DNA of 40,859 nt from Alphaproteobacteria bacterium (GTDB lineage: Bacteria > Pseudomonadota > Alphaproteobacteria > Bin65). Of this stretch, positions 8,257 through 32,397 are shown piece after piece; the first letter of the stretch is position 1; every line of letters begins with the position of its first letter. The notes beneath the pieces are model-generated. The model saw only the letters and a program-made list of their open reading frames with translations, did not search any database and was not told the DNA's origin. A program made the translations under genes and the position numbers. The stretch lies in NCBI GenBank assembly GCA_021776685.1, contig JAJFFJ010000158.1, positions 1 to 40,859 of the forward strand, written 5' to 3'.

Positions 8257-8326
8257 CGGGAAATTCACCCAAATTGGCGATACTTCGGCTGTCTAACGGA
8301 TGCCTAGTCGGCCGCGGAGGGCCGAT

Positions 8327-9445
8327 ATGTCGCGAATTTTCATTGTTGATGACCGAAGAACCAACCGGCGGATTCTGGGCGAGCTTGCTCGCCAGGTAGA
8401 GGAGTCTGTTGAAGTGTCGGATTATGAGGATCCGCGCAACGCGTTGCTGGCAGCCAGCGACTCGGTGCCGGACCTGATCATCACGGACTTCAATATGCCG
8501 GAGATGGATGGCGCTACCTTCGTGGACAGTTTCCGCGCGCTGCCGGGATGTGCCGATATCCCGGTTATCGTCGTCACTGCCTACGAAGACAGGGAATACC
8601 GCTACCGGGCGCTAGAGGCTGGCGCGACGGATTTCCTGCTCAGCCCTGTCGATCATCACGAATTCATCACCCGGGCGCGCAATTTGTTGAACCTGCGGCG
8701 CCAGATCATCGCGCGGGAAGCGGCGGAAACAGCCAACGAGGCAAAGACGGCATTTCTGGCCAATATGAGTCACGAACTGCGTACGCCTCTGAACGCCATC
8801 ATCGGTTTTGCCGAGGTGATGCAGAACGAGACGCTCGGTCCCATTGGAACGCCCAAGTATCTTGAATATTCGGCCCATATCTCGGAAAGCGCTGAGCAGC
8901 TGCGTGCGATTATCCAGAACATCCTCGACATCACACTGATCGAGGAGGGCAAGCTGGCTCTGAATCTGGAGGAGATTGATGCGGCCAAGGCACTGCAGGC
9001 GGCGACATTCATGCTGGCGCTTGACGCGTCCCAAAAAGACATTGTGTTGAATGCGGACTTGCCTGCCGACATGCCGCCAATCCATGTGGACAAGGGCAAA
9101 TTCTCACAGATATTCCTGAACCTGATCGCCAATGCGATCAAGTTCACGCCCGAAGGCGGCAACGTGACCGTTTCTGCCGAGCAGGTTGCGGACGGCCTGA
9201 ATATCAGAGTTGCAGACACGGGCATCGGGATGTCCCGTGATGACCAGAACCTCGCAATTCAGCGGTTTGGACAGGTTTCCAACAATCCGCACAACAAAAA
9301 ATACGCTGGCGCCGGGCTCGGCCTGACGCTGGCCATCAATCTGATCGAACTTCATGGTGGCAGCCTCAGCATCGACAGTGCCGAGGGAAAAGGCACAAAT
9401 GTACAGGTGTTCTTTCCCTTGGTGGTGATGCGGCAGACAGCCTGA
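8327..9445 (+). CDS. receiver-first hybrid histidine kinase (REC-HisKA-HATPase)
   Basis: A 372-residue soluble two-component protein. The N-terminal receiver (residues 1-122) has the acidic pair Asp8-Asp9, phospho-acceptor Asp54 in [12 protein letters not shown] and Thr84, but the conserved Lys of the K-P motif is Ser106 (LLSPVD). After a short helix comes HisKA with His149 in [13 protein letters not shown], then HATPase with the N box (NLIANAIKF), DTGIGM and AGAGLGL. There is no membrane segment, so its signal probably arrives through the receiver. GGAGGG stands five bases before the ATG at 8327; an upstream in-frame ATG at 8300 has no such site. The stop lies four bases before the rpfC-like gene, so the two are translated together and it may work in DSF signalling. 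Confidence 0.9.
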
Positions 9446-9449
9446 TCCC

Positions 9450-12302
9450 GTGACAGCCCAGCCGACCCCGTCTGAGGAAAGCGGCACCCCGGTGGCAGCC
9501 GACATCCCCGCTGAACCATCAGTCGAGGCGGCGGAACCGGCTGCGCGCGAAACAGTGTCAGCGCCGAAGCGGTCGCTTCTCAGAACCCAGATATTGTGCT
9601 CACTGATGGTGTTGACTGGCGCCTGGTGCGTCGGCGCCTACTTCTCGGCGTTGCGGGGTCCACATTTCGCCGGACAGTACCCTCTGGTTTATTGGGGGCT
9701 GTTTGCAGTTCTGGTTATTTGCATGGGGTGCCTTCTGGGCACCATCGCGGTCCAGGGCTTCCGGCGTATTGCAGATACATTTGCGGCACGCACAGACACC
9801 GAGCACCAACAGGCGATGTTGCGGCAGGTGCTGGCAAGCCTGGTGCTGGCGTTTTCGGCGTTGGCCACCGCGTTTGGCGCCACCGGCGCCGGCCTGTACT
9901 GGGCCATTTTCATCATGTCTGCCGGCATGTGCATGTCGGCACTGATCCTGTTCCATATCCTGTGGCGGCCGGCGGCTTCGCCGGTTCGGCGTGTGATTGC
10001 CGCCGTGTCCGAAACGCTGATGATGTGCTTCATCATGTATGTCGGCGGTGAAGGCACCTCGCTCCTCTATCCGCTGCTGCTGTTCGTGGTCTTCGGACAC
10101 GGTTTCAGGTTTGGCCTGCACTATCTGCTCGCTTCTGCATCGTTCGCGACAGTGGGCTTTGGGGTCATGATCATGGTGACCCCATTCTGGCAGGCGATTC
10201 CAGCGGTGGCCTATAGCCTGCTGGCAGGATTGATTGTCCTGCCGGCCTACGCGGCCACCCTGATTACCGCGCTCACGCGTGCGAAGGCGGAAGCTGAAGC
10301 GGCGAATCAGGCCAAATCACGGTTTCTTGCCACGATCAGCCACGAGCTGCGGACGCCGCTGACCGCGGTGATCGGCCTGAGCGGCCTGATTACCAATACG
10401 GAACTTGATTCCGAACAGCGGGGAATGGTGCGGTCGATCCGATCTTCCGCCCGGGCGCTGCTGTCGCTGATCAACAACATTCTGGATTTTTCCAAATACG
10501 AGGCCGGCAACATTGCGCTGAGCGCGGTCAAATTCGACCTGTGCGCGCTGCTGGCGGAAATCGACTCGATGTTCGCCGTCCAGGCTCGCGCCAAGGGCGT
10601 GCGATTCCAGATTCATCTGGCCGGCGATGTACCGGCAGGTCTGATGGGCGATGCTGACCACCTGCGCGATATCTTGATCAACCTCATCGGCAACGCGATG
10701 AAGTTCACGGAGGCGGGGCGGATCGCGGTTCGGGTCTCCGCCCAGGCCACGGATCGGCGGATACAGCTCAATGTCGATGTATCTGATAGCGGCATCGGAA
10801 TCCCCGAAAGCCAGCAGGACCGCATTTTCGAGCAGTTCAGTCAGGCTGACGAAACCACCAACCGCCGCTATGGCGGTACAGGTCTGGGGCTCGCGATCGT
10901 CCGCCATCTGGTCAACGCAATGGGCGGCACGCTTGGTCTGACCAGCGAGGAAGGCAAAGGCAGTACCTTCCATGTGAGCCTGCCGTTCGATCTCCATGAC
11001 GAGATCACCACCACAGCTTCTCGCCAGGTCGGGCATCAGGTGTTTCTGGTGGCGCTGCAGGAGCAGGAAGCAGGGGTTCTTTGCGACGGGATCGAAGCCC
11101 GTCAGGAACGTCCTGTTGTCCTCGAGAGCGCGGCCAAGTTTCTTGCCCTTGTCAAATCCGGGGCGCTGCCGCGGCGTCCTGTGATCGTCTTTGACGAGCG
11201 CCAATCCGATCTCGGACCCCTTGAATTTGCCCGCCTCGCCTATGGCCAGAGCGACCGGGTGACGCCTGTTCTTGTGCGTGTTGCAGATGGGCGCCAACCG
11301 GCCGGAGAAATCGATATGGACGCTGACAGCTATTACGCCGCCCGCATGGACGCGCCGCTTGACAGTGCGAACGTTGACCAGATCCTGCACTTTTCAGACT
11401 TTCTGGCCGGTGGCGTTGCCGCGGAGTCCGACGGAGAGGAACGCCCGGCAACCGTGCGGCCACTGAATGTGCTGCTGGCCGAGGACAATCCTGTCAACCA
11501 GAAGGTACTGGGCAAGATTCTCGAAAGCGCCGGCCACGAGGTCACGATCGTGGGCGCAGGTGACGATGCGCTTGATGCCTTGGGAGACGGCGGCTTTGAC
11601 ATCGCGCTGATGGATATGAACATGCCCGGCATGGGCGGTGCTGAAGCGGTCAAGTTGTACCGGTTCGAGGCGATGGGCGAGCCCCATCTGCCGATCATCG
11701 CCCTGACGGCGGATGCCACTGCCGAAAGTCGACAGGATGCGTCGGACGCCGGCATGGACGGCTATCTGACCAAGCCGATTGAGCCGGAAGATTTGTTGAG
11801 CGCTCTTGAGAAATATTGTGCGACAGAGGAAGCGGAGCAGGCGCCGGTGGTAGTTGGTGGCGAACCTGAACAGCTTCCAGATCTGCCGCAGGAGCCGGAG
11901 ATCGCTGCCCATCCACGGCGCGAGACAGCGCTGCCGCCGATTGTCGATCACAATGCGGTGGAAAGCCTGAAGGCGCTGGGCGGAACGGACTTCTATCAGG
12001 ATCTTCTGGAGGAATTCCTGACCGATAGCAGCAGGATCATGACCCGCGTGGCAGCCGCGATCGAATCAGCCGACGCCCGCGAGGTGAGAGACTCCACCCA
12101 CGCGATGCGAAGTGCGGCGGCTCACTTTGGCGCACGCAGGCTGCACAAGCTCTGCATGTCTGTCAGCAAGATTACCGAAGATGAAGTGCGGGACCGGGGC
12201 GCCGGATTCCTGGAAGAGCTGACCACTGAACTCGACCTCGTGTCGCGCGAACTGAAGGCTAACCCGAAACGCCCCGCGGCCGTCGCTGGTCTGCACGGCT
12301 GA
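9450..12302 (+). CDS. rpfC: RpfC-like membrane hybrid sensor kinase (TM-HisKA-HATPase-REC-Hpt)
   Basis: A 950-residue hybrid kinase. A Pro/Ala/Glu-rich tail (1-40) precedes about seven membrane helices (about 43-275), whose segment [10 protein letters not shown]...[26 protein letters not shown] resembles the DSF-sensing region of Xanthomonas RpfC. HisKA follows with His298 ([13 protein letters not shown]), HATPase with DSGIGIPES and GTGLGLAI, an ill-conserved receiver-like region (about 527-655), a true receiver (about 668-790, phospho-Asp722, Lys in TKPIEP) and a C-terminal Hpt domain with His884 ([13 protein letters not shown]). The GTG start lies four bases after the previous stop, and no separate ribosome site is evident. 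It converges on the rpfF-like gene with 11 bases between them, matching the convergent rpfC/rpfF layout I recall from Xanthomonas. RpfG is not in the window. Confidence 0.85.
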
Positions 12303-12313
12303 GCGAGATATCC

Positions 12314-13318
12314 TCAGGACGTGGTGCGTGACCCGCGGCGCACCTGGGCGGCCGCCAGGCGGCGCATCTTCTTCAGATCGCTGGGTGACAGCTTCAGGGC
12401 CGTTTCGACCCAGGCATCCACCACTGCTTCAAGTTCCTGATAAGTGATCGGATTGACGATATGCCGTGTCTGGTAGATCGCCCGATGAGCGTGATAGCGC
12501 GGCTCGTTGCGCTCCACATATTCGATCAGCGCTTCCCGGCCAAAGCCATCATCGGCGACTTCGTCCACAAGGCCCATCTCGTGCAGTTCCTCGGCGCTGT
12601 AGATTTTGCCCGACTTGATCATGCGCTCTGCGCCAACCGTGCCCAGTCTGCGTGACAGGAAGGAATAGGCGCCCATTCCCGGGAACAGGCCAAAAAGAAT
12701 TTCCGGCAGGCCGAATTTGGCGCTTTTCTCTGCAATGATCACGTCGCTGCTCAGCGCCTGTTCAAAGCCGCCGCCCAGTGCATCGCCCTGCACAAGTGAA
12801 ATGGTGCTGACCGGCAGATCCAGATGGCTTGAATGGGCAAACACGCAGTCAATGCACAGCTTGGCATATTGCAGGAGGCCGGAGCGGTCTTCAGCTTCGA
12901 CCGCGGAAGCGAACAATTCCAGATGTCCGCCCATGTTGAAGATACCGGGGATATAGGAGCCAACGACGAGATAGCGGACCGGCTCGCGACCGTTGCCCGC
13001 ATCGGCGAAGCTTTGCCGTACGGCAGTCTGGGCCGCGCGAATTTCCTTGAGCAGATCGGTGGTGAAGCAGGGGCGTTCTGACGGGTTCATGAACGACCAC
13101 AGAATCTGACGCTCCGCATCCAGCTCGACGCTCAGCTCGCGAAACCCGGTCCGCGCCATGGGGCCATCCATGGGAGAGTCGATGCCATCGATCTTGCGGT
13201 AACCCCGGCGCGCTGTTGGCGCTACGGGCAACGGCATTTCCGCTCTGGTCATGCTGGAACCAGTTCGGTCGTTGCGCGATGTCGTCGGCGTTTTTGCCAG
13301 CTCCAGGCCATCATTCAT
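12314..13318 (-). CDS. rpfF: RpfF-like DSF synthase (enoyl-CoA hydratase family)
   Basis: A crotonase-fold protein of 334 residues. It matches RpfF closely: YLVVGSYIPGIFNMGGHLELF, ISLVQGDALGGGFEQALSSDVIIAE and FGLPEILFGLFPGMGAYSFLSRR. The two glutamates needed for dehydratase and thioesterase activity in Xanthomonas RpfF (Glu141 and Glu161) correspond to Glu186 and Glu206, with the same 20-residue spacing. The family reaction makes cis-2-unsaturated fatty acids (DSF) from 3-hydroxyacyl-ACP. The N-terminus is about 45 residues longer than Xanthomonas RpfF and looks disordered. The ATG at 13318 is preferred because GGGAG lies eight bases upstream; a TTG at 13333 is the alternative. The promoter region holds the GTTAAC array shared with the divergent hydrolase gene. 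Confidence 0.9.
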   Translation of the reverse strand: MNDGLELAKTPTTSRNDRTGSSMTRAEMPLPVAPTARRGYRKIDGIDSPMDGPMARTGFRELSVELDAERQILWSFMNPSERPCFTTDLLKEIRAAQTAVRQSFADAGNGREPVRYLVVGSYIPGIFNMGGHLELFASAVEAEDRSGLLQYAKLCIDCVFAHSSHLDLPVSTISLVQGDALGGGFEQALSSDVIIAEKSAKFGLPEILFGLFPGMGAYSFLSRRLGTVGAERMIKSGKIYSAEELHEMGLVDEVADDGFGREALIEYVERNEPRYHAHRAIYQTRHIVNPITYQELEAVVDAWVETALKLSPSDLKKMRRLAAAQVRRGSRTTS

Positions 13319-13405
13319 GCCCGTTTCTCCCAAGCATTTTTCATTTACTTTTTGTTAAGAATTGGACAATGCCAAGTAATCAGGAAAAATTCAAGTATTA
13401 CGTGC

Positions 13406-13457
13406 GTTAACGATTTGTTAACTATTTGTTAACTGTTTGTTAACCATATTTTTTAAC
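13406..13457. promoter_or_regulatory. phased GTTAAC array, candidate CtrA binding sites
   Basis: GTTAAC occurs at 13406, 13417, 13428 and 13439, a strict 11-base period, and a fifth TTAACC begins at 13453. Adjacent boxes read TTAA-N7-TTAAC, which is the published consensus for the cell-cycle regulator CtrA in alphaproteobacteria, so the array holds three overlapping full sites. The last box extends to TTAACCAT, the eight-base half-site also reported for CtrA in Caulobacter. The array lies midway in an AT-rich 214-base gap, about 90 bases from the rpfF start and 90-130 bases from the hydrolase start. Which gene it controls is not decided by the sequence. Confidence 0.7.
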
Positions 13458-13466
13458 CAATATATT
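13437..13466 (+). promoter_or_regulatory. possible promoter of the alpha/beta hydrolase gene
   Basis: TTGTTA (13437-13442) and TATATT (13461-13466) with an 18-base spacer resemble a housekeeping promoter. The -35 element overlaps the last GTTAAC box, the usual position for CtrA-activated promoters. Transcription would begin near 13473, about 60 bases before the ATG. Confidence 0.4.
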
Positions 13467-13532: not shown

Positions 13533-14354
13533 ATGCCTTTGGTTGAATCGGCGGGGCTTCGGGCCCATTACCTGGAGCGGGGACGAGGGGGTGAGCGAGA
13601 GCCGGCGGCGCTCTTGCTGCACAGCGCTGGTCTGGGCGCAGGTCAATGGCGTCAACTTATGGGCGCGCTGGAGCACGATATCTGGACCATTGCGCCCAAT
13701 CTGCGCGGTTATGGACGTACATCGCCCTGGCCCGCAGACGAACCCATGAACCCCGAGGCGGAACTGGATCTGATTGATCTGGTCTTGGCCGGTTTGCCGG
13801 CTGAGGTTCATTTAATTGGACATTCCCTCGGCGCCTGGCTCGCGCTGCTGGCGTGCCGGCGCCATCCCGGGCGTTTCAAATCCCTTGTGCTGGTTGAACC
13901 TGTAACCTTGGGGATTTTGCATGTGGCCAGCGAATCGGCGGCGCGCGAGGAGGTCGGCACGATGATCGGCGATTTCATGGACCGCTTTGGCGCGGGTGAT
14001 ATCGCCGGGGCGATGGAGCGTTTTACCGACTATTGGTATGGCAACGGAGCTTGGGCGGCGATCCCGGCGGCGCAGCGGCTGCCGATATTTGCGCGGGCGG
14101 GAAAGATGGCCGCAGATATCAAAGCCGCGTGGGCAGATCGCCTGCCGCTGGCCCATTATGCATCCAGTATTGGCGATGCACTGGTGCTGGGCGCGGAGAA
14201 TACATCTTTAGCGGCACGCAGGATGGCCGCCCTGTTGGCGGATACGCTGCCCGGGGCGACCTGCATCCAGATCGACGGCGCGGGGCACCTGGCGCCCGCG
14301 ACCCATCCTGATGAGGTTGCCGCGTTGATTCGGGGTCACCTGGCTCGCCCGTGA
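13533..14354 (+). CDS. alpha/beta-fold hydrolase next to rpfF
   Basis: A 273-residue hydrolase with the nucleophile elbow GHSLGAW (Ser98), an oxyanion-side motif LLLHSAGLGAGQW, and the catalytic His252 in GAGHLAP. The acid is less clear: Glu222 in VLGAENTS lies where the family Asp is expected. No signal peptide is present, so it is cytoplasmic. GGTGAG lies about 8 bases before the ATG. It is divergent from rpfF and upstream of the acyl-CoA ligase with 110 bases between them. A role in thioester or lipid-signal hydrolysis would fit the context, but many family members act on unrelated esters. Confidence 0.85.
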   Translation: MPLVESAGLRAHYLERGRGGEREPAALLLHSAGLGAGQWRQLMGALEHDIWTIAPNLRGYGRTSPWPADEPMNPEAELDLIDLVLAGLPAEVHLIGHSLGAWLALLACRRHPGRFKSLVLVEPVTLGILHVASESAAREEVGTMIGDFMDRFGAGDIAGAMERFTDYWYGNGAWAAIPAAQRLPIFARAGKMAADIKAAWADRLPLAHYASSIGDALVLGAENTSLAARRMAALLADTLPGATCIQIDGAGHLAPATHPDEVAALIRGHLARP

Positions 14355-14464
14355 TGGCACCTCGGGAATAGTCTATCGGGTCCGCACGGGCGGATAATGG
14401 GTTGCCTGCAGGCCCTCCGGTCACGCACAATCCCGGCCCAAATTCGCTTTGCAGGGAGTGGGGC

Positions 14465-16180
14465 ATGTCCGAAGACGGAGCCGGCGCGGTGGCGCCCGGG
14501 ACAACCAGCGATCAGCCGTTCCTCAATAAGTATCCGGAGGGTGTCAGCTGGCAATTCGATGTGCCCGCACAACCCGTGCCAGCAATTCTGGACCGCGCGG
14601 TGTCACGCTGGCCGGATGGCAATATGACCGATTTCCTCGGCAAGCGGCTGACCTATCGGGAGGTCAACGACCTTGTGAACCGGGCCGCAAAGGGTTTGCA
14701 GGATCTGGGGGTCACCAAGGGCACAAAGGTGGGCCTGTTCCTGCCAAACTGCCCCTATCACATCATCTTTTACTACGCGGTGCTGCGCGCCGGCGGCACG
14801 GTGGTGAACTACAACCCTCTCTACGTCGAGAAGGAGCTGGTGCACCAGATTGAGGATTCCCACACCGACATCATCGTTACACTCGATATCAAGGTCCTGT
14901 TCGAAAAGATGCAGACAATGCTGGCCGAAACCCGGCTGAAGCATATCATCGTCTGCCGCATGGCGGACGCGCTCGGCGGAATCAAGAAGTTGCTTTTCCC
15001 GATCGCGCGACGCAAGGACCTCGCCAAAATCCAATATGGCAGTGACGTTGTGAAATACGCGGACGTCATTTCCAACAATGGCGCCTATACGCGGGTGGAC
15101 ATCGATCCGGAGGAGGATGTCGCTGTCCTGCAATATACCGGCGGCACCACGGGCGTGCCCAAGGGCGCCATGCTGACCCATGCCAACCTGTATCTGAACA
15201 CGGCGCAGACGGATGCCTGGTTCGCCTATCGGGAGGACAATGGCGGCGAGAAGACGTTGGCGATTCTGCCGTTCTTCCACGTCTATGGCATGACCGCGAT
15301 CATGAATTTCGGCATCTGGCGAGGGGCGGAAATGATCCTTCTGCCCCGGTTTGAAATCGACAATGTGGTCGACGTGATCGACAAGCAGAAGCTGAGCCTG
15401 ATGGCGGGCGTGCCGACCATGTACAGCGCCCTCCTGCACCATCCGAAGTCCCGTGAAATCGACTGGTCATCGTTCCAGTTCTTCAGTTCCGGAGGCGCCC
15501 CCCTGCCGGTCGAGACGCTGCGGGCGTTCCAGGAGCTGACAGGCCGGCAGATCTGCGAGGGTTATGGCCTGACCGAGACCTCGCCGGTCGCTTGCGCAAT
15601 CCCGGAAACGGGGGTCTACAAGCCGGCGTCTATCGGGCTGCCGGTGCCCGGCACGCTGGTCGAGATTGTCGACATGGACGATCCCTCGAAGCTTATGCCG
15701 CAGGGAGAAAAGGGCGAACTGACAATCAGCGGGCCGCAGGTGATGAAGGGCTATTGGGGCCGGCCTGAGGCGACGGCCGAATCAATTCATAACGGCCGCT
15801 TGCTTACCGGCGACATCGGCTATCAGGATGAAGATGGCTACACCTTCATTGTCGACCGCAAGAAAGAGATGATCATTGCGAGCGGCTACAATGTCTATCC
15901 GCGCCATGTGGAGGAAGCCATCTATGAGCATCCGGCGGTGGAGGAAGTCGCAGTTGTCGGCCTGCCGGACGAATACCGCGGTCAGACCGTGAAGGCCTAC
16001 ATCAAGCTCAAAGACGGTGCTGAGCTGACCGACAGCAAGCTCGAGGAATTCCTCAAGGACCGGTTGTCGCCGATTCAACTTCCCAAGATCGTCGAATTCC
16101 GCGGCGAGTTGCCGAAGTCAGCCATCGGCAAAATCCTCAAGAAAGAACTGCTTGAGGAAGAAGCCGCCCGGAAAATATAG
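14465..16180 (+). CDS. fadD: long-chain fatty-acid CoA ligase (FadD/RpfB-like)
   Basis: A 571-residue AMP-binding enzyme that activates fatty acids with ATP and CoA. The P-loop-like motif YTGGTTGVPKGAMLTH, the GYGLTETSP motif, TGDIGYQDEDGY with FIVDRKKEMIIASGYNVYPRHVEE (the FACS signature), and the catalytic Lys in PKSAIGKILKKEL are all present. AGGGAG six bases before the ATG at 14465 sets the start; an upstream in-frame ATG at 14402 is poor. In Xanthomonas, RpfB is a FadD-type ligase next to rpfF and takes part in DSF turnover; the position here suggests a similar role, though general fatty-acid use is equally possible. The stop codon is inside a perfect palindrome. Confidence 0.92.
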   Translation: MSEDGAGAVAPGTTSDQPFLNKYPEGVSWQFDVPAQPVPAILDRAVSRWPDGNMTDFLGKRLTYREVNDLVNRAAKGLQDLGVTKGTKVGLFLPNCPYHIIFYYAVLRAGGTVVNYNPLYVEKELVHQIEDSHTDIIVTLDIKVLFEKMQTMLAETRLKHIIVCRMADALGGIKKLLFPIARRKDLAKIQYGSDVVKYADVISNNGAYTRVDIDPEEDVAVLQYTGGTTGVPKGAMLTHANLYLNTAQTDAWFAYREDNGGEKTLAILPFFHVYGMTAIMNFGIWRGAEMILLPRFEIDNVVDVIDKQKLSLMAGVPTMYSALLHHPKSREIDWSSFQFFSSGGAPLPVETLRAFQELTGRQICEGYGLTETSPVACAIPETGVYKPASIGLPVPGTLVEIVDMDDPSKLMPQGEKGELTISGPQVMKGYWGRPEATAESIHNGRLLTGDIGYQDEDGYTFIVDRKKEMIIASGYNVYPRHVEEAIYEHPAVEEVAVVGLPDEYRGQTVKAYIKLKDGAELTDSKLEEFLKDRLSPIQLPKIVEFRGELPKSAIGKILKKELLEEEAARKI

Positions 16181-19828: not shown

Positions 19829-19911
19829 TGCGTTCCAAGCCATCTAACTTCCCGAAAATTCGCCAAATTCGACCTATGTGAGTCCCATCTGGTCGCAGGA
19901 TCTCAAACGTC

Positions 19912-19940
19912 TTGACGGTCTCCGAAGGCGTCCCTATATT
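19912..19940 (+). promoter_or_regulatory. tetR promoter
   Basis: TTGACG (19912-19917) and TATATT (19935-19940) are separated by 17 bases, close to the consensus. Transcription would start near 19947, inside the inverted repeat that follows, and 30 bases before the tetR ATG. Confidence 0.6.
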
Positions 19941-19966
19941 TTCTCAAACGACCGTTTGGTTGAGAA
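19941..19966. promoter_or_regulatory. probable TetR operator
   Basis: TTCTCAA (19941-19947) is matched by TTGAGAA (19960-19966), and inside it CAAACG (19945-19950) and CGTTTG (19953-19958) form a second inverted repeat. It covers the predicted transcription start, so binding by the encoded TetR protein would repress its own gene and perhaps the fad genes behind it. Confidence 0.55.
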
Positions 19967-19976
19967 AGATCAAAGA

Positions 19977-20567
19977 ATGGCTGTGAAGAAGACCGACCGC
20001 GACGCTGTGATGGAGGCGGCCATGAACCTTTTCCGGGTGAAGGGCTATCACCATACATCAATGGCGGATATCGCGGAGGGGTGTGGCCTGCTGAAAGGCA
20101 GCGTCTACCACTACTTTTCAGGAAAAAAGGACATGGCGCTGGCCGTGCTGGACAACCTGATTGAGGATGCCCGCCGCAAGCTGTTCGCCGAGGCGAAAGA
20201 CACGTCGGTGCCGGCCGCTGACCGGCTGCGCACATTGGTGGAGGCGGTCGAGGGCTATTTCGTCGGCCGCGAAGGTGGATGCCTGATGGGCAATCTGGCC
20301 CTGGAACTGGGCAACGCCGATGCTGATTTCGCCAACCGCATCCGCACCTATTTCAATGACTGGAAAGATGCCCTGGCGGTCGTACTGGCCGAGGAGCATG
20401 GCATGAAGCGGGCCGAGGCACTGGCGGAGGACGCCATCGCACGGGCCCAGGGCGCCATCATGATGATGGGTCTGTATCGCGACGATGCCGTCTTCCGGCG
20501 CGCTGGCGTAGACACGCTGGCGCTGCTGGGCCTGGGCACGTCACCAGCCGCCAAGGCCGCGGCGTGA
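19977..20567 (+). CDS. TetR/AcrR-family regulator of the beta-oxidation genes
   Basis: A 196-residue TetR-type repressor. The N-terminal helix-turn-helix reads AAMNLFRVKGYHHTSMADIAEGCGLLKGSVYHYFSGKKDM (about residues 14-53), the family DNA-binding domain; the C-terminal half (about 60-190) would bind a ligand, plausibly an acyl-CoA given the neighbours. The ATG at 19977 directly precedes the domain; an upstream in-frame ATG at 19878 would translate through the promoter and operator and is rejected. It stands 91 bases before the thiolase gene on the same strand. Confidence 0.9.
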   Translation: MAVKKTDRDAVMEAAMNLFRVKGYHHTSMADIAEGCGLLKGSVYHYFSGKKDMALAVLDNLIEDARRKLFAEAKDTSVPAADRLRTLVEAVEGYFVGREGGCLMGNLALELGNADADFANRIRTYFNDWKDALAVVLAEEHGMKRAEALAEDAIARAQGAIMMMGLYRDDAVFRRAGVDTLALLGLGTSPAAKAAA

Positions 20568-20605
20568 ACCCGGGACAGAAATCACTGTCTAGCTGAAACA
20601 ACTCT

Positions 20606-20632
20606 GCCGGACCCGGAAAGACCCGGTTCGGC
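20606..20632 (+). terminator. hairpin between tetR and the thiolase gene
   Basis: GCCGGACCCGG and CCCGGTTCGGC pair over 11 positions with one mismatch around an AAAGA loop. It could end part of the tetR transcript or protect the downstream message. No U-run follows; the thiolase ribosome site (GGAGGA) begins about 15 bases later. Confidence 0.4.
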
Positions 20633-20658
20633 ATCCAAAGGACCCCTGGAGGAAAATC

Positions 20659-21801
20659 ATGACCGATGTCGTCATCGCCGGATACAAGCGTTCCCCATTT
20701 CATTTCGCCCACAAAGGGCACCTGACAAAAGTACGGCCCGATGATCTGGTCGCCAACACGATCAAGGCGCTGATTGCGGACACCGGCGTCAACAAGGACG
20801 ATATCGAGGATGTCTTCCTCGGCAACGCCGTGCCGGAAGGAGAGCAGGGGATGAACATGGGCCGCTATGTGGCCTTCCTGTCAGACCTGCCGATCACCAC
20901 CGGCGGCACCACCATCAACCGCTGGTGCGGCTCCTCCATGCAGGCGATTCATATGGCAGCCGGCGCCGCCAAATGGCGAGCGGGCGAAGCCTTCGTCGCT
21001 GCTGGCATCGAAAGCATGACCCGCGTGCCGATGACCGGCTTCAACCCGTCGCCCAACCCGGCGCTGGCGAAGTCCTGGCCAGAGACCTACTATTCCATGG
21101 GTCAGACCGCGGAAGAGGTTGCCAAGAAATATCAGGTGACCCGCGACGCACAGCAGGAGTTCGCGGCTAAGAGCCAGCAGAAGGCAGCCGATGCTGCCGG
21201 CAGCGGCCGATTCAAGGACGAGATCGTTCCCATCGAGACGCCGGACCATGGCGTGGTCGACAGCGACGGCACCATCCGCGCGGACACGACGGCAGAGGGC
21301 CTGTCGGGTCTTAAGCCGGCCTTCAGTGCCGACGGCACGGTAACTGCAGGCACTTCATCGCCCCTGACCGATGGCGCGTCTGCGGTCCTCGTTTGCACCC
21401 GTGAGTATGCCGACAAGAACAACCTGCCGATCCTGGCTCAGATCAAGTCCTTCGCGGGCACCGGGCTGGAGCCGGAGATCATGGGCATGGGCCCGGTCGA
21501 ATCCACCCGCAAGGCGCTGGCGCGCGCCGGCCTGACCGTTCAGGACATCGATGTCTTCGAGATCAACGAGGCGTTCGCCTCCCAGGCCCTCGCCTGCATC
21601 CATGAACTGGGCATCGACCCGGCGAAGGTGAACCTGGATGGCGGCGCTATCGCCCTTGGCCATCCGCTCGGCGCCTCCGGCGCCCGCATCACGGGCAAGG
21701 CAGCGGCCAACCTGAAGCGCGAGGGCGGCAAATATGCGGTCGCCACCATGTGCATCGGCGGCGGGCAGGGCATCGCTACGGTGTTGGAAGCGGTCAACTA
21801 G
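20659..21801 (+). CDS. fadA: acetyl-CoA acyltransferase (thiolase)
   Basis: A 380-residue thiolase catalysing the last beta-oxidation step, CoA-dependent cleavage of 3-ketoacyl-CoA. The acyl-accepting Cys90 is in [11 protein letters not shown], His335 in [16 protein letters not shown], and the second catalytic Cys365 in CIGGGQG. NEAFA supplies the third family motif. GGAGG lies 7 bases before the ATG. It is followed after 20 bases by the hydroxyacyl-CoA dehydrogenase gene, and the acyl-CoA dehydrogenase gene comes next, so this is a fatty-acid oxidation operon under the TetR regulator. A biosynthetic thiolase role is less likely in this context. Confidence 0.92.
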
Positions 21802-21821
21802 GCGCCTGGCGGGAGAGAGAT

Positions 21822-24143
21822 ATGGAAATCAAGCAAGCAGCCGTTATCGGCTCGGGCGTCATGGGCAGCGGCATCGCCGCCCATCTCGCCAATGCAGGCG
21901 TGCCCGTCACGCTCCTCGACATCGTGCCGGACGGCGCGAACAACCGGAATACGCTGGCGGAAGGCGCGATCCAGAAGCTGTTGAAGCAGGATCCCGCGCC
22001 TCTGATGCACAAGCGCAATGCGCGCCTCATCACTGCCGGCAATACCGAAGACGACATGGACAAGCTGGCCGAGGCCGACTGGATCGTTGAGGTCGTGATC
22101 GAGCGCCTTGATATCAAGCATGATGTCTTCCAGAAGATCGAGGCGAACCGCAAACCCGGGTCGATCGTGACGTCCAACACGTCGACGATCCCGCTGGCCC
22201 AGCTGATGGATGGCATGCCGGATAGCCTGGCCCAGGATTTTGCCATCACCCACTTCTTCAATCCGCCACGCTATTTGCGCTTGCTGGAGCTGGTGGGCGG
22301 CCCACAAACACGGCCGGAAGTAATCGATACCCTGCAAGAATTCTGCGACGTGCGCCTGGGGAAGGGCGTGGTCACCGCCAAAGATACGCCTGGCTTCATT
22401 GCCAATCGGATCGGCACGCTGTGGATGCAATCCGCGGTCAACGCCACCATCGACCACGGCCTGACGGTCGAAGAGGCGGACCAGGTTGGTGGCAAGCCCA
22501 TGGGCGTTCCCAAGACCGGCATCTTCGGCTTAATCGACCTTGTCGGCGTTGATTTGATGCCCCACGTGGCCGCGAGCATGAATGCGGCCTTGTCGGCAGA
22601 CGATCCCTATGTCCAGGAATACCGGGAATCGGCTCTGGTTCAGAAGATGATCGACGAAGGCTATACCGGCCGCAAGGGCAAGGGAGGCTTCTACCGCCTG
22701 AACAAAGAGGGCGGCAAACGGATCAAGGAATCCATCGACCTTTCCACGGGCGAATATAGCCCGTCACGCAGGGCGCAGCTGGAAAGCGTCAGCGCCGCCG
22801 GCCGCAATCTGCAAGCACTTGTCGAATTCGACGACAAAGGCGGCGCCTGGGCCTGGGATGTGCTTTCCAAGACCCTCAGCTACAGCGCTCAGTTGGTGCC
22901 GGAAATCGCCGACACCATCGTCGATGTGGATGACGGCATGACCCTCGGCTATGCGTGGAAGTGGGGGCCATTTGAACTGCTCGACAAGATTGGCGCGAAA
23001 TATGTGGCCGACCGCTTGCGCGACGAAGGCCGCCCGGTACCGCCGCTGCTCGACCAAGTAGGCGAGGGCAGTTTTTACCGGGTCGAAGACGGCCAGCTGC
23101 AGTTCTTTGGCACTGACGGCCAATATCACGACATCGTTCGTCCCGAGGGCGTGTTGCTTCTGGAGGACGTGAAGCGCCGCAGCGAGCCGGTCATCAGAAA
23201 TGGCTCCGCAAGTCTTTGGGATATTGGTGACGGCGTCGTCTGCTTCGAGATTCACACAAAGATGAATGCGCTCGACCCGGACGTGGTGGCGCTGATCGAG
23301 AAGTCCATCGGCCTCGTCGAAAAAGACTACAAGGCTTTGGTGTTCTACAATGAGGGCAGCAACTTCTCCGTTGGCGCCAACATTGGCCTTGCTCTTTTTG
23401 CCGCCAACGTCGGCGTCTGGCCCATGATCGAGACCATGATCGAAGGCGGCCAGAATGCGCTCAAGAAGATCAAGTTCGCGCCGTTCCCGACCGTGGCGGC
23501 GCCCGCCAACATGGCGTTGGGGGGCGGTTGCGAAATTGTCTTGAACTCCAGCGCAATTCAGGCCCATGCGGAAACCTACACCGGCCTCGTCGAGGTTGGC
23601 GTCGGCGTGGTGCCGGGCTGGGGCGGGTGCAAGGAAATGCTGCTGCGCTGGCAGACCCATCCCAAGACACCGAAAGGTCCGATGCCGGCCGTGGCCAAGG
23701 TCTTCGAATATATCTCCACCGCCCAGGTGGCCAAGTCCGCCCAGGAAGCCCAGGAAATGCTGATCCTGCGGGACGGCGACGGCATCTCCATGAACCGCGA
23801 CCGGCTGCTGTATGACGCCAAACAGAAGGCACTCGCCATGGTGGACGGTTATCAACCGCCGGAGGAGGCGGAAATTCGCCTGCCGGGCGGCGGCGGACGT
23901 GCGGCGTTGGATCTCGCGGTTGACGGTTTCCACCAGCAGGGACTGGCGACGGACCATGACGTGGTCGTTTCAGGTGAGGTCGCCAACATCCTGACCGGTG
24001 GCGAGGCCGACCTGACAGACACACTGAGCGAGGCCGACATGCTCAAGCTTGAGCGCGATGCATTCATCAAGCTCTTGAAGACGCCGGCGACGCTCGCTCG
24101 CATTGAACACATGCTGACCACCGGCAAGCCGCTGCGCAATTAG
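21822..24143 (+). CDS. 3-hydroxyacyl-CoA dehydrogenase/enoyl-CoA hydratase fusion
   Basis: A 773-residue bifunctional beta-oxidation enzyme. The dehydrogenase comes first: NAD-binding VIGSGVMGSGIAAHL (residues 9-23), THFFNPPRYLRLLELV with the catalytic His and Glu, and a C-terminal dehydrogenase domain to about 440. The crotonase domain is at the end (about 465-680), with FSVGANIG, ANMALGGGCEIVLNS and GLVEVGVGVVPGWGG. This order is the reverse of E. coli FadB and fits the FadN-like type. It would hydrate enoyl-CoA and oxidise the 3-hydroxyacyl-CoA for the thiolase just upstream. GGGAGAGAG precedes the ATG at 21822. Confidence 0.92.
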   Translation: MEIKQAAVIGSGVMGSGIAAHLANAGVPVTLLDIVPDGANNRNTLAEGAIQKLLKQDPAPLMHKRNARLITAGNTEDDMDKLAEADWIVEVVIERLDIKHDVFQKIEANRKPGSIVTSNTSTIPLAQLMDGMPDSLAQDFAITHFFNPPRYLRLLELVGGPQTRPEVIDTLQEFCDVRLGKGVVTAKDTPGFIANRIGTLWMQSAVNATIDHGLTVEEADQVGGKPMGVPKTGIFGLIDLVGVDLMPHVAASMNAALSADDPYVQEYRESALVQKMIDEGYTGRKGKGGFYRLNKEGGKRIKESIDLSTGEYSPSRRAQLESVSAAGRNLQALVEFDDKGGAWAWDVLSKTLSYSAQLVPEIADTIVDVDDGMTLGYAWKWGPFELLDKIGAKYVADRLRDEGRPVPPLLDQVGEGSFYRVEDGQLQFFGTDGQYHDIVRPEGVLLLEDVKRRSEPVIRNGSASLWDIGDGVVCFEIHTKMNALDPDVVALIEKSIGLVEKDYKALVFYNEGSNFSVGANIGLALFAANVGVWPMIETMIEGGQNALKKIKFAPFPTVAAPANMALGGGCEIVLNSSAIQAHAETYTGLVEVGVGVVPGWGGCKEMLLRWQTHPKTPKGPMPAVAKVFEYISTAQVAKSAQEAQEMLILRDGDGISMNRDRLLYDAKQKALAMVDGYQPPEEAEIRLPGGGGRAALDLAVDGFHQQGLATDHDVVVSGEVANILTGGEADLTDTLSEADMLKLERDAFIKLLKTPATLARIEHMLTTGKPLRN

Positions 24144-24168
24144 GCCGGACCAGGGAAGGATACAGATA

Positions 24169-25965
24169 ATGCCGATTTACAACGCACCGCTTCGTGACAT
24201 GCGTTTCGTGCTGACGGAGGTCTTCGACTACGAGAATGATGTGGCGAGCCTGCCGGGATATGAGGAGGCGTCGCTCGACCTAGTCGATGCGATCCTCGAA
24301 GAAGCTGCCAAGTTCTGCGAAAACGAGCTGCAGCCCTTGAATCTCTCCGGCGATGAAGAAGGCTGCCACTACGAAAATGGCGTGGTGCGCACGCCCAAGG
24401 GATTCAAAGAGGCCTATGACAAATTTCGGGAGGCCGGCTGGACGTCGCTTGCCAACGATCCGAAATATGGCGGGCAGGGTCTGCCCCATGTGGTCGGCTT
24501 CGCGGTTGAGGAGATGATCTGCTCCTCCAACATGGCCTTTGGCATGTATCCGGGTCTGACCCAGGGCGCTTACCGTGCCATCGAGCGCTGGGCCAGTGAC
24601 GACCTTAAGGACCTCTATTTGCCGAAAATGACGGACGGCACCTGGTCCGGCACCATGTGCCTGACCGAGCCCCACTCCGGCACCGATCTCGGCATGATCC
24701 GCACAAAGGCGGAGCCGAATGATGACGGCAGCTACGCGATCACCGGCACCAAGATATTCATCTCCGCCGGCGAGCATGATCTCACCGAAAACATCATCCA
24801 TCTGGTTCTGGCGAAACTTCCCGATGCCCCTCCGGGCATCAAGGGCATCAGTCTGTTTTTGGTGCCGAAATTCCTGCCCAAGGAAGAGGGGGGCGAGGTG
24901 GTGCCCGGCCCGTCCAACGGCGCCCGTTGCGGCTCCATCGAGCACAAGATGGGCATCAAGGCCTCATCCACCTGCGTGATGAATTTCGACAATGCTCAAG
25001 GCTGGCTTGTGGGCGATGCGCACAAGGGCATGCGCGCCATGTTTGCGATGATGAATGCCGCCCGCCTGGGGGTTGGCATGCAGGGCCTGGGCCTTGCCGA
25101 GGTGGCCTATCAGAACGCCGCCGCCTACGCAAAGGAACGCATTCAGGGCCGCTCCCTGACCGGCACCAAGGAGCCTGAGAAGGCAGCGGATTCGATCATC
25201 GTCCACCCGGACGTGCGGCGGATGCTGCTGAAATCGAAGTCGCTGACCGAAGGCGCGCGGGCGCTGGCCTATTGGGCCGGCATGCTGCTCGACCGACAGC
25301 ATCGGCACCCGGATGAAGCCGAACGTGCGGAAGCCGATGATTTCGTTGCCTTGATCACCCCGGTGATTAAGGCTGTGTTTACTGACCATGGCTCGGACGC
25401 GGCCAACCTCGCCGTTCAGGTCCATGGCGGCCACGGCTACATCCACGAATATGGCGTCGAGCAGTTCGTGCGCGACGCCCGGATTACGCAGATCTACGAA
25501 GGCACCAACGGCATCCAGGCCTTGGACATGATCGGCCGCAAGCTGCCGGAAGGTGGCGGCCGGCTGCTACGCCGGTTCTTCCATCCCATGCAGGACTTCC
25601 TGATGGAGAATATGGCGGACCCGGAAATGGCGGAGTTCGTCAAGCCGCTGTTCAAATCCTTCGGGCAGCTCCAGCAGTTGACCCTGCATATCGCCCAAAA
25701 GGGCATGGCCGACCCGGAAGAGGCAGGCGCTGCAGCTACCGAATATCTCCGGTTCTTTGGTCTGGTCGCTATCGGCTGGATGTGGGCCCGCATGGTCAAG
25801 GTGGCCAAGGACAAGGTGGAGGGTGATGACACCGGTTTTTACCGCGCCAAACTCGCCACTGCCCGCTTCTACATGACCCGTGTGCTGCCGGAGACAGCGT
25901 CCCTTGGCCTCGCGATCATGGCCGGCAAGAAGCCGCTGATGGAGCTGGAAGAGGCGGCATTCTGA
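24169..25965 (+). CDS. acyl-CoA dehydrogenase
   Basis: A 598-residue FAD-linked acyl-CoA dehydrogenase performing the first beta-oxidation step. It has the short N-terminal family extension (YNAPLRDMRFVLTEVFDY), the FAD and substrate motifs MCLTEPHSGTDLG and ITGTKIFISAGEHDL, and IYEGTNGIQALDMIGRKL with the catalytic Glu444. A C-terminal helical domain of about 120 residues makes it longer than the usual 380-residue enzymes, as in the 600-residue subgroup. A GGGAAGGA site precedes the ATG; the gene follows the fusion gene by 25 bases. An electron-transfer flavoprotein would be the acceptor; its genes are not in the window. Confidence 0.93.
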   Translation: MPIYNAPLRDMRFVLTEVFDYENDVASLPGYEEASLDLVDAILEEAAKFCENELQPLNLSGDEEGCHYENGVVRTPKGFKEAYDKFREAGWTSLANDPKYGGQGLPHVVGFAVEEMICSSNMAFGMYPGLTQGAYRAIERWASDDLKDLYLPKMTDGTWSGTMCLTEPHSGTDLGMIRTKAEPNDDGSYAITGTKIFISAGEHDLTENIIHLVLAKLPDAPPGIKGISLFLVPKFLPKEEGGEVVPGPSNGARCGSIEHKMGIKASSTCVMNFDNAQGWLVGDAHKGMRAMFAMMNAARLGVGMQGLGLAEVAYQNAAAYAKERIQGRSLTGTKEPEKAADSIIVHPDVRRMLLKSKSLTEGARALAYWAGMLLDRQHRHPDEAERAEADDFVALITPVIKAVFTDHGSDAANLAVQVHGGHGYIHEYGVEQFVRDARITQIYEGTNGIQALDMIGRKLPEGGGRLLRRFFHPMQDFLMENMADPEMAEFVKPLFKSFGQLQQLTLHIAQKGMADPEEAGAAATEYLRFFGLVAIGWMWARMVKVAKDKVEGDDTGFYRAKLATARFYMTRVLPETASLGLAIMAGKKPLMELEEAAF

Positions 25966-26479: not shown

Positions 26480-27886
26480 CTAGCGTTCCCGCAGAGATTC
26501 GTTGATGATTTTGGCAATCGGCTCGAAGAGGTAGTCGAGGACTGTCTTCTTGCCTGTCTTGATGTCCACCGAGGCGGTCATGCCCGGAATAATTGGCAGC
26601 CGCCGCCCTTGATAAAGCAGGTGATTGATGTTGGTCCGGATGCGAATCCGGTAGTAGGTCTCGCCTTGTTTCTTGTCGTCGTCGATGGCGTCCGCGCTGA
26701 TATCGATGACCTTGCCTTCCAGGCCGCCATAGATCGAGAAATCATAGGCGCTGAGCTTGACCGTCGCCGCCTGGTTTGGCCGCAGGAAGGCGCGGTCCTT
26801 GGGTTTGATTTTGGCCTCAACCATCAGGGTGTCATCCACCGGGACGATTTCGATAAGCGCCTGGCCGGGCTTAACGACGCCGCCAATGGTGCTGACGCCG
26901 ATCTGCTTGATGATACCGCGCACCGGCGCACGAAGATCGGTCCGGCGCACCCGCTCCTGGCTCGCGCCGATGCTGGGCTCAAGGGCCGCGATCTGGCTCA
27001 GGATAAGAGACAGGTCCTTGCGCACGTCCGCGAGGAAGGCTGCCTTCTTGTCCCGGACTTTTGCTTGTACTTCCCGTAGTGCTGACTGGGAGCGGCGCAC
27101 TGCAATTGTCTCCGTGCGCAGCTGGCCGGATGCCTTGTTGGTCTCGCGGCGGATCTGCTCAAGTTCCGACCGGGATACGGCGCCATTCTTGTAATCGCCT
27201 TCCGTTTCCCGAAGTTCCTGGCGCAGCGACGCCACACGTCGAGTCAGGGTCGATACCTTGCTGCGTGCCTCTGCATATTGCTGGCGGCGCTGGCTGACCT
27301 GCTGCGTCAACACATTCACTTCCGACTTGTGGCGAACCTGCCGGGAGGTAAACAGGCGGCGTTGCTCTGCTGCTTCCCGCGCGGCGTTCTGCAAAACACG
27401 CGGCGGAAAGGCGATGCGTTTGTGACCCTCTGCCTCGGCCCGCAGGCGCGCAGCGGCGGCCCGCAGCGAATAGTATTTCGCCAGCTTTTCACGGAACTGC
27501 GAATCTGAAACCGTGCTGTCGATGCGCATCAGCACCTGGCCACGCTCCACGCGCTGGCCTTCGCGAACCATAATGGCGGCCACAATACCGCCCTCCAAAT
27601 GCTGCACCACTTTGTTCTGGCCGGTTGGGATCACCTTGCCGTCGCCGCGGGTGATTTCGTCCAAAGTGGCGTAGTTGGCCCAGCCGAAAAACACGATCAG
27701 GAAGGCGCCGATCACCAGACACATATAAATACCGAACCGCCGCGCGCCCGCCTTGGCGACCAGGTCGGTGCTGGAGATCATGAATTCCGGATTGCTCAGG
27801 TCAGCGGAATCCGGGCCGAGCGGGCTGCCGGCCGGCCCCACGGCATGGTCCTGGGCTTTTTCTTCCTTGGTTCTGCGGCCGAACAT
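26480..27886 (-). CDS. HlyD-family type I secretion adaptor, second copy
   Basis: A 468-residue periplasmic adaptor. A cytoplasmic tail (1-50) precedes one membrane helix (51-70). Then come the barrel-sandwich half GDGKVIPTGQNKVVQHLEGGIVAAIMVREGQRVERGQ, a long alpha-helical hairpin (about 130-310) and the second half TDLRAPVRGIIKQIGVSTIGGVVKPGQALIEIVP, followed by a beta-barrel and LPIIPGMTASVDIKTGKKTVLDYLFEPI, the HlyD family end signature. It would bridge the ABC exporter and the TolC protein. It starts three bases after the stop of a second, related HlyD gene, so the two are co-translated; the pair probably arose by duplication. Confidence 0.93.
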   Translation of the reverse strand: MFGRRTKEEKAQDHAVGPAGSPLGPDSADLSNPEFMISSTDLVAKAGARRFGIYMCLVIGAFLIVFFGWANYATLDEITRGDGKVIPTGQNKVVQHLEGGIVAAIMVREGQRVERGQVLMRIDSTVSDSQFREKLAKYYSLRAAAARLRAEAEGHKRIAFPPRVLQNAAREAAEQRRLFTSRQVRHKSEVNVLTQQVSQRRQQYAEARSKVSTLTRRVASLRQELRETEGDYKNGAVSRSELEQIRRETNKASGQLRTETIAVRRSQSALREVQAKVRDKKAAFLADVRKDLSLILSQIAALEPSIGASQERVRRTDLRAPVRGIIKQIGVSTIGGVVKPGQALIEIVPVDDTLMVEAKIKPKDRAFLRPNQAATVKLSAYDFSIYGGLEGKVIDISADAIDDDKKQGETYYRIRIRTNINHLLYQGRRLPIIPGMTASVDIKTGKKTVLDYLFEPIAKIINESLRER

Positions 27887-27889
27887 CTC

Positions 27890-29233
27890 TTACTGCTCGA
27901 CCGTAGCGCGATTGTTGCTCTGGCTCTTGGTGATCGGCTTCATGATGTAGTCGAGCACGGATTTTTCCGTCCCCGTCATGATGTTCACTACCGCCGTCAT
28001 GCCAGGGATGATGGGTAGGCGCTTGCCGTTCTTTTCCAGGAAGCTACGTGATGTGCGCACCTGTACCTTGTAGAAGGCATCGTCGGGCCGATTGCTTTCT
28101 TCGATGGTGTCGGCGCTGACGCTGACCACCTTGCCTTTGAGCCCGCCATAGATCGCGTAGTCATAGGCGGTAATCTTTATCACTGCTGCCTGACCAATCT
28201 TCAGGAAGGCGCGGTCCGACGGGCGGATTTTGGCTTCGATCAGCAGCGAATCTTCCAGCGGGACGATTTCCACAAGCGGTTCGCCGGGCTTGACCACGCC
28301 ACCCCGTGTACTGATCCGCAGCTGTTTTATGGTGCCGCGTACCGGAGAACGGACTTCCGTACGGCTGACCTCGAAGTAAAGCTGCCGCATCCGCTGCTCA
28401 AGCTCGGACATCTTGCTGCGCACTTCGGTCAGTTCCTGCAGCACCTTTGAGCGGCTTTCATTGCGCTTGTCCTGAACCTTCTGGCGGGATTCGCGGATGC
28501 CTGCCTGATAGCGCGGAATTTTCAACGACTCGGTGCGGTGCTCGCCGCGCGCGTCACTCAGATCGCGTTGCAGGCGCAGAAATTCCAGTCTCGATACCGC
28601 CCCACGCTGCACCATCGGCCTGGCGCGGGCGACTTCAGCAGACAAGGATGCCACCCGTTTGGTCATGCTCGCTACCATGCTGCGCTGTTCTTTCAGCAAC
28701 TGTTCGCGCTGCCGCAATTGCTGGCGCAGGACGCCCAGTTCCGCTTCCACTTGCAATCGGCGGGTGCGGAAGACATTGCGCTGCTGGTTGGCGAATTTCG
28801 GCGCCTCGCGCAATACGGTGCGGGTGAACTTGATTTTCTTTCTACCCTTCGCCTGTGCCTCCAGGCGTGACGACCGGGCGGAGAGACTCAGATATTCCGA
28901 CCGCTTCTCTTCATAATCCGCTTTGCCGTCACGATTCTGAATGCGCAGCAAGACTTGGCCGGCTTTGACGATGTCGCCTTCTTTGACGAGGATCGCGGTG
29001 ACGATGCCACCGCGAATATGCTGCACGATCTGGTTCTGGCGGGACGGGATCACTTTGCCTTCGCCTTTGGTGACTTCCGGCAGGTTGGTCATCGACGCCC
29101 AGATCACGAACATCGCGAGCAGGGCGCCGATCAGGATAAGCCCCCACTTGGCGAGCTTGTGGGGTCGGCTGATCTGCGCAGCTGTCAGGTCCGACACCAG
29201 GTCCATATCATCGCGATGGCGCATGAGATCCAT
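27890..29233 (-). CDS. HlyD-family type I secretion adaptor, first copy
   Basis: A 447-residue adaptor with a short tail, a membrane helix (about 30-48), the lipoyl-like half GEGKVIPSRQNQIVQHIRGGIVTAILVKEGD, a long coiled-coil hairpin (about 110-295) and RSPVRGTIKQLRISTRGGVVKPGEPLVEIVP. It ends with LPIIPGMTAVVNIMTGTEKSVLDYIMKPI. It is collinear with the following HlyD gene yet clearly diverged, especially in the hairpin. Seventeen bases separate it from the exporter gene, with GGCGGA as its ribosome site. Most type I systems have one adaptor gene, so two may form a mixed complex or serve different states. Confidence 0.93.
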   Translation of the reverse strand: MDLMRHRDDMDLVSDLTAAQISRPHKLAKWGLILIGALLAMFVIWASMTNLPEVTKGEGKVIPSRQNQIVQHIRGGIVTAILVKEGDIVKAGQVLLRIQNRDGKADYEEKRSEYLSLSARSSRLEAQAKGRKKIKFTRTVLREAPKFANQQRNVFRTRRLQVEAELGVLRQQLRQREQLLKEQRSMVASMTKRVASLSAEVARARPMVQRGAVSRLEFLRLQRDLSDARGEHRTESLKIPRYQAGIRESRQKVQDKRNESRSKVLQELTEVRSKMSELEQRMRQLYFEVSRTEVRSPVRGTIKQLRISTRGGVVKPGEPLVEIVPLEDSLLIEAKIRPSDRAFLKIGQAAVIKITAYDYAIYGGLKGKVVSVSADTIEESNRPDDAFYKVQVRTSRSFLEKNGKRLPIIPGMTAVVNIMTGTEKSVLDYIMKPITKSQSNNRATVEQ

Positions 29234-29250
29234 TGGGGGTTTCCGCCGGA

Positions 29251-32200: not shown

Positions 32201-32397
32201 GAGGAAGGCGCCAGGGGCGATGGTGCGGGCGCAGACGGAGACGCCCCACCCGCCAATTGGCGCATGGGGTGTCCGGCACCAGGCGGCGGCGCATTTGGAA
32301 TTGGCGCAGGCTGTCCGCTGAAATTGCCAGAAAACTCACCTGCCGGCCCAGGCGCCGGGGGAGAGTCGCTGTTGTTTTTTTTCGACTTCCAAAACAA
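29251..32397 (-). CDS. LapB-like type I secretion ABC exporter with Pro/Ala-rich N-terminus
   Basis: A 1048-residue exporter. About 340 residues of Pro/Ala/Gln-rich, probably unfolded sequence come first, then a C39-like domain (about 345-470) without the catalytic Cys, as in exporters of uncleaved substrates. Membrane helices lie in about 490-790, and the ATPase domain in about 809-1048: Walker A GKIGSGKST (Lys852), Q-loop AQDIFLF, signature LSGGQRQ and Walker B ILILDEPTSAMD. The H-loop His is replaced by Gln1006 (VVTQRVSLL). The start is TTG with GGAGGAG ten bases upstream. The two HlyD genes follow, and the likely substrate is the giant adhesin encoded downstream of the divergent tolC-like gene. 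Confidence 0.93.
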   Translation of the reverse strand: MFWKSKKNNSDSPPAPGPAGEFSGNFSGQPAPIPNAPPPGAGHPMRQLAGGASPSAPAPSPLAPSSDYAGPPIRLKPAGAPTDTTVGGPTAAPPPRPAAPSASAPPPIHVAQPPRPAANAAMANPQAARAAIQPSPSPAAPGGRPAVVAAPAQRAAAPRTANIQPIALGGREDDEFSQTQASAPTGPRAAGSTQSAQPAAAANPSMQGQSPAAVPPPTQGAGAAAQANPQNDPRFAEIRRTPPPSLMGRPAQPPAQARVPDEHAQPATAPNARPAPPQQPIPPAAGPALDNGGGPIELTMDQALPPQGAAPGPETLNLNTPAPPPDAPAAAPGAAWRLPAGLSRRDDPLLDSLVVLTAIFERPHSAEALTAGLPLVNDRLTPELFLRAAARADLSARIVKRDLDDVSDLSLPAVLLLGDSKACVLVRLKDKKTAHVIMPESGHGISEVPVEQLKARYTGYTIFARPEFQFDARSEATEIKPTKSWFWGTLAKFWRIYAQVIVAALFINLFALATPLFVMNVYDRVVPTKAHETLWVLVLGVLTIFAFEFILRNLRAYFVDTAGQSADVIMASTIFQQILGIQMGARPASAGAFANQLREFETLRDFFTSATLVALVDLPFIILFIGVVFMIGGPVGFVPLAAVPVVIGAGLILQLPLTKVVAKTARESAQKHALLVESIVGLETIKSLGAEGRTQRNWERFVGMTSKSSKKARSLSQLAMFLTSLTTQLTTIAVVIVGVFLIFDGELTVGALIACTILTGRAMAPLSQVAGILTRFNQSMVSLRTLDNVMNMPIERPAGKQFVHRPNLRGAIEFRDVSFTYPNQEILAVENASFAIKPGERVGVIGKIGSGKSTIEKLILGLYPPGEGSIRIDGTDIKQVDPADLRRNIGYVAQDIFLFFGSVKDNIAMGAPYVDDAAILRAARISGVDSFISKHPHGFDLQVGERGENLSGGQRQSIAIARALVRDPSILILDEPTSAMDKGSEDWFISRLKETLEGRTLIVVTQRVSLLTLVDRLIVMDGGRVVADGPRDSVIETLARGQIRGATD

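Follow-up and report, generated by a model that had tools for sequence, protein, structure and literature searches.

A predicted array of overlapping CtrA sites in the promoter region of an rpfF-like gene of an alphaproteobacterium

Operators of the PhoB/OmpR type are built from tandem 11-bp direct repeats, in which contiguous half-sites lie one helical turn apart. CtrA control of AHL quorum-sensing genes has already been published (Wang 2014; PMC4046655): AHL synthase operons carry CtrA sites and show CtrA-dependent expression, and such sites have been predicted in several Rhizobiales and Rhodobacterales (PMC4046655). CtrA sites at AHL promoters are scattered over the Alphaproteobacteria and are thought to have evolved several times (PMC4046655). 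Promoters with multiple CtrA sites can delay or tune expression (PMC11264516), and in the DSF system of Xanthomonas campestris the rpfC and rpfF genes are convergent (PMC3749722). Here we analyze a stretch of alphaproteobacterial DNA of 40,859 nucleotides (the window), in which a dense row of predicted CtrA boxes lies beside a gene for an RpfF-like crotonase.

The array, its neighboring genes and CtrA in the same genome

The array can be read directly from the sequence. GTTAAC begins at positions 13406, 13417, 13428 and 13439, at exact 11-bp steps as the preliminary description had claimed, and the four repeats (GTTAACgattt, GTTAACtattt, GTTAACtgttt and GTTAACcatat) form three overlapping TTAA-N7-TTAA sites (N7 sites) with starts at 13407, 13418 and 13429, which agrees with its reading of them as the CtrA consensus. 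Across the array (13406-13444, assigned to neither strand) 24 of 24 box bases are identical and the spacers differ (GATTT, TATTT and TGTTT). Against the three N7 sites observed, shuffling of the window predicts 0.05, and none of 100 shuffles reached three. The fourth box reads TTAACCAT (13440-13447, plus strand), an extended CtrA half-site that closes the array and was also assessed by a permutation count, and an extra TTAACC box (13453-13458, plus strand) follows 13 bp (N9) after the fourth box and does not keep the register.

The placement of the array between a DSF-synthase-like gene and a hydrolase gene is likewise borne out, at 88 and 89 bp from the two start codons. It sits within an intergenic promoter region whose promoter hexamers are weak consensus matches and in which a promoter scan returned three elements against 0.7 expected. 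Toward rpfF, a promoter-like element (13394-13421, minus strand) has its -35-like TTAACA inside the array and its -10-like AATACT outside; toward the hydrolase, another (13437-13466, plus strand) has a -35-like TTGTTA that overlaps box 4 and a -10-like TATATT. Both are weak (9/12) and were called purely by their match to the consensus.

The rpfF-like gene, a putative DSF synthase gene, occupies 12314-13333 on the minus strand, with a likely start at ATG 13318 preceded by GGGAGA. Its product is a crotonase by profile match and not of the luxI/luxR type. Among solved chains, Xanthomonas RpfF 3m6m ranks first (E 4e-52), ahead of 7zq7 and 6dgn, and generic crotonases score no better than about 1e-16. 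The catalytic glutamate pair of Xanthomonas RpfF, which we take to be Glu141 and Glu161 of the Xcc enzyme, is aligned in the protein, and GGGFE and GLPE are conserved. The protein passes the wider PRK08788 cut-off and misses the NCBIfam RpfF equivalog cut-off (NF053515; 212 vs 550 bits), and because of this miss we name it only RpfF-like. On these similarities the enzyme likely makes DSF.

Convergent with rpfF lies a gene for an RpfC-like hybrid kinase (9450-12302, plus strand) with a hydrophobic N-terminus and HisKA-HATPase-REC-Hpt domains, a label drawn from domain order and orientation, with DSF sensing putative; this convergent layout is seen at several relatives too. A REC-HisKA-HATPase kinase gene (8300-9445, plus strand) adjoins it. 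On the other side of the array, which lies in the common intergenic region, an alpha/beta hydrolase gene (13533-14354, plus strand, ATG 13533) is divergent from rpfF, with a gene for a long-chain fatty acyl-CoA ligase of the FadD/RpfB-like kind (14402-16180, plus strand) downstream of it. No gene for an RpfG of REC-HD-GYP architecture was found beside rpfF; the only HD-GYP gene of the genome is on contig C131, and the domain search of its product found no receiver domain.

Elsewhere in the window, positions 19878-25965 hold a TetR regulator gene and then genes for a thiolase, a 3-hydroxyacyl-CoA dehydrogenase that also weakly matches enoyl-CoA hydratase, and an acyl-CoA dehydrogenase; this row of fatty-acid oxidation genes is close to the putative DSF genes. 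Positions 26480-34578 hold what looks like a full type I secretion set: a pair of HlyD-type adaptors, an ABC transporter whose N-terminus has a weak C39-like match, and a divergent OEP outer-membrane protein. Two minus-strand open reading frames, at 35312-36244 (310 codons) and 38021-39199 (392 codons), gave no Pfam match.

The preliminary description had named absence of ctrA as a refutation of its reading, and a canonical ctrA is present on contig C35 of the genome (G000; 4.54 Mb in 158 contigs). Its product passes the NCBIfam CtrA cut-off (421 vs 350 bits) and is 69% identical over 227 residues to the Caulobacter CtrA sequence used as query, with an identical C-terminal recognition region. 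The genome also encodes several other full-length members of the OmpR/PhoB family, with 27-36% identity to CtrA. A genome-wide pattern search, proposed earlier as a way to see whether the array is an outlier, returned 18 N7 sites in 4.54 Mb, with overlapping sites at the array only. The promoter of the genome's own ctrA carries GTTTGTTAACCA, common to it and box 4 of the array, together with a GTTAAAC box. N7 sites also lie upstream of mraZ-rsmH, topA, rodZ, a gene for an RlpA-like lytic transglycosylase (rlpA) and an HTH-metK pair; the site at this pair, TTAACTATTTGTTAA, matches the array's middle site letter for letter. The remaining sites adjoin metabolic or unassigned genes. Such a composition, with genes of division, envelope and DNA, would be expected of a CtrA regulon.

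One more N7 CtrA-type site, at G000:C131:25983-25997 (L188:2184-2198), is found between the sole HD-GYP gene and the divergent gene of a BTLCP-type cysteine protease. The HD-GYP protein, of the c-di-GMP phosphodiesterase type, has 713 aa, a PAS-HD-GYP architecture and a weak Cache match. A CtrA site at this gene would connect c-di-GMP turnover with CtrA.

Recurrence of the boxes upstream of rpfF-like genes

Alphaproteobacterial rpfF-like loci were collected by contig and whole-genome searches, the 500 bp upstream of each tblastn match were taken, and near-identical upstream regions were collapsed, which left 80 non-redundant loci including that of the window. N7 spacing accounts for 17 sites in 10 of the 80 loci, compared with a mean of 1.9 loci and a maximum of 4 for 30 control spacings in the same loci (Poisson p about 3e-5 for the excess, a value that, like the other p-value for recurrence, ignores shared ancestry beyond the collapse). 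Most of the loci (70/80) are without an N7 site; Rhizobium sp. SL86 (L026) is an example of a cultivable alphaproteobacterium that has one at rpfF. The extended half-site TTAACCAT occurs in 18 of the 80 and ranks first among 560 letter permutations (mean 0.78); the runners-up reach 7, 6 and 6 loci, partly through overlap with TTAACCAT itself, and then 5. Outside the class, N7 was found once in 27 rpfF-like loci from other groups. Among 30 loci of the class, the longest about 12.9 kb, N7 sites number three in the 15 kb that precede rpfF and zero in the remaining 346 kb; TTAACCAT occurs six times before rpfF and twice elsewhere.

The boxes are also commoner in genomes with canonical CtrA. N7 or TTAACCAT is present upstream of rpfF in 23/44 genomes with canonical CtrA versus 1/9 without (p = 0.026), a comparison that uses earlier upstream coordinates than the counts in 80 loci and is uncorrected for shared ancestry. 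Canonical CtrA is absent from genome G204, yet one N7 site lies at its rpfF. For genome G408, an incomplete assembly may explain the missing CtrA; an 84% identical fragment is present in G409.

Conservation in relatives, which had been put forward as a check, gives a mixed result: the exact N7 spacing is enriched across alphaproteobacterial rpfF-like loci, but N7 sites are missing from three rpfF-bearing genomes of the window's own family (rpfF-like genes 44-47% identical). Half-sites occur in two of these three, and no congener of the window's genome was found. As a separate observation, three loci of one order (L025, L117 and L137) carry TTAACCATWTTTTAAGCA some 50 bp ahead of the rpfF start, almost unchanged from species to species.

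Arrays of three TTAAC boxes at 11-bp steps are present in 14 of 385 alphaproteobacterial genomes, with the reversed control pattern in about nine, and an rpfF-like gene is present in only 24 of the 385. Array and gene coincide in two of the 14, G000 and G088, each with its array upstream of rpfF. The array of G088, whose order is represented by that one genome, lies at its rpfF locus (L126, G088:C32); its TTAA boxes keep the 11-bp step, its spacers are different, and it includes a duplicated stretch, GTGTTAACGAAGGTTTAATTGGTTAACAATA. The difference between the spacers of the two genomes suggests separate origins of the arrays. The other three-box arrays have varied neighbor genes, among which, judged by eye, no second recurring target was seen.

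A proposed role for CtrA and the competing explanations

We consider it probable that the array represents head-to-tail CtrA sites, as predicted from sequence, in the promoter region common to rpfF and the divergent hydrolase-fadD genes. CtrA~P belongs to the OmpR/PhoB family of regulators and recognizes direct repeats of 11 bp. On this array it would fill two to four adjoining half-sites, and the most likely effect would be that transcription of rpfF is activated, or timed, when CtrA~P is high. We favor activation or timing on account of the weak -35-like hexamers that the array contains for each direction. The extra boxes may add affinity, cooperativity or delay, in the manner of the multi-site pilA promoter of Caulobacter (PMC11264516). 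CtrA binding, the sign of regulation and the choice of rpfF over the hydrolase gene as chief target are inferred.

The array could instead chiefly control the divergent hydrolase-fadD genes, its nearness to rpfF being incidental. The boxes are equidistant from both start codons and a promoter-like element does face the hydrolase, but in relatives the genes beyond the boxes appear, by eye, to differ, while the boxes recur upstream of rpfF, and we hold this assignment to be unlikely. The whole OmpR/PhoB family binds such repeats, so that one of the additional full-length members in this genome, reading 11-bp direct repeats in place of CtrA, might be the cognate regulator, and the N7 site at rpfF of G204 would fit this. 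The half-site, however, is that of CtrA, TTAAC(CAT), related boxes stand at the genome's own ctrA promoter and at cell-cycle genes, and the boxes at rpfF-like genes are commoner where CtrA is canonical, all of which makes another regulator rather improbable.

We give very little credence to an array born of chance or slippage, an 11-bp tandem repeat in an A+T-rich spacer with no regulatory role. The four 11-mers are similar overall, and the reversed control pattern does arise by chance in about nine genomes; set against this, all 24 box bases are kept while the spacers vary, the shuffles predict only 0.05 sites, the recurrence at rpfF-like genes is specific to N7, and rpfF of G088 is preceded by another array whose spacers differ. 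No replication genes were found beside the array, on which ground iterons and a replication origin were rejected; a plain microsatellite and xenogeneic A+T-rich DNA were both rejected on the exactness of the boxes and of their register.

The earlier proposal of cell-cycle control over quorum-signal production is supported as a prediction, and the recurring boxes suggest that the alphaproteobacteria bearing them couple signal production to the cell cycle. A broader and more speculative model, which we think possible but would not bet on, is that CtrA directly times DSF-type synthesis in many alphaproteobacteria and here also controls the sole HD-GYP gene, such that DSF sensing, c-di-GMP and the CckA-CtrA relay would form one feedback loop coupling the cell cycle to population signaling.

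Comparison with known systems

The preliminary description knew of no account of cell-cycle control over quorum-signal production; such control is described for AHL synthases (PMC4046655), and for DSF none was found as far as our searches reach. Since CtrA control is known for the former, novelty would lie with DSF. The literature search turned up nothing that connects CtrA with a DSF synthase, its matches being two c-di-GMP reviews that name CtrA one and three times, and a wider search, judged by title or abstract, added none; both covered few subscription journals, so novelty is not proven. What our analysis supports as new is the predicted CtrA control of a DSF-type quorum-signal gene through an unusually dense array. 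If true, alphaproteobacterial cell-cycle control of quorum signaling would reach beyond AHL to fatty-acid signals of the DSF type, a form of signaling that appears little studied in the Alphaproteobacteria, and the array offers a concrete, testable promoter together with a list of further species for testing.

Like luxR2I2 of Dinoroseobacter shibae and others (PMC4046655), the locus presents CtrA consensus sites before a putative signal-synthase gene; unlike the AHL systems with LuxI/LuxR (PMC4046655), its predicted target encodes an RpfF-like crotonase and its sites form an overlapping array. Several CtrA-type sites at a single promoter, one of them at -35, recall the pilA promoter of Caulobacter (PMC11264516), from which the locus differs in the overlap of its sites in a continuous 11-bp register and in having a quorum-signal gene as predicted target. 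With PhoB/OmpR-type operators the array shares the layout of contiguous half-sites, and its box sequence is that of CtrA. The gene neighborhood resembles the rpf/DSF locus of Xanthomonas campestris (PMC3749722) in the convergent RpfC-type hybrid kinase, in both catalytic glutamates and in the nearby acyl-CoA ligase, and departs from it in having no adjacent rpfG, with the sole HD-GYP gene elsewhere and no receiver domain found in its product, and in a fadD that is divergent where Xanthomonas campestris has an rpfB-rpfF operon.
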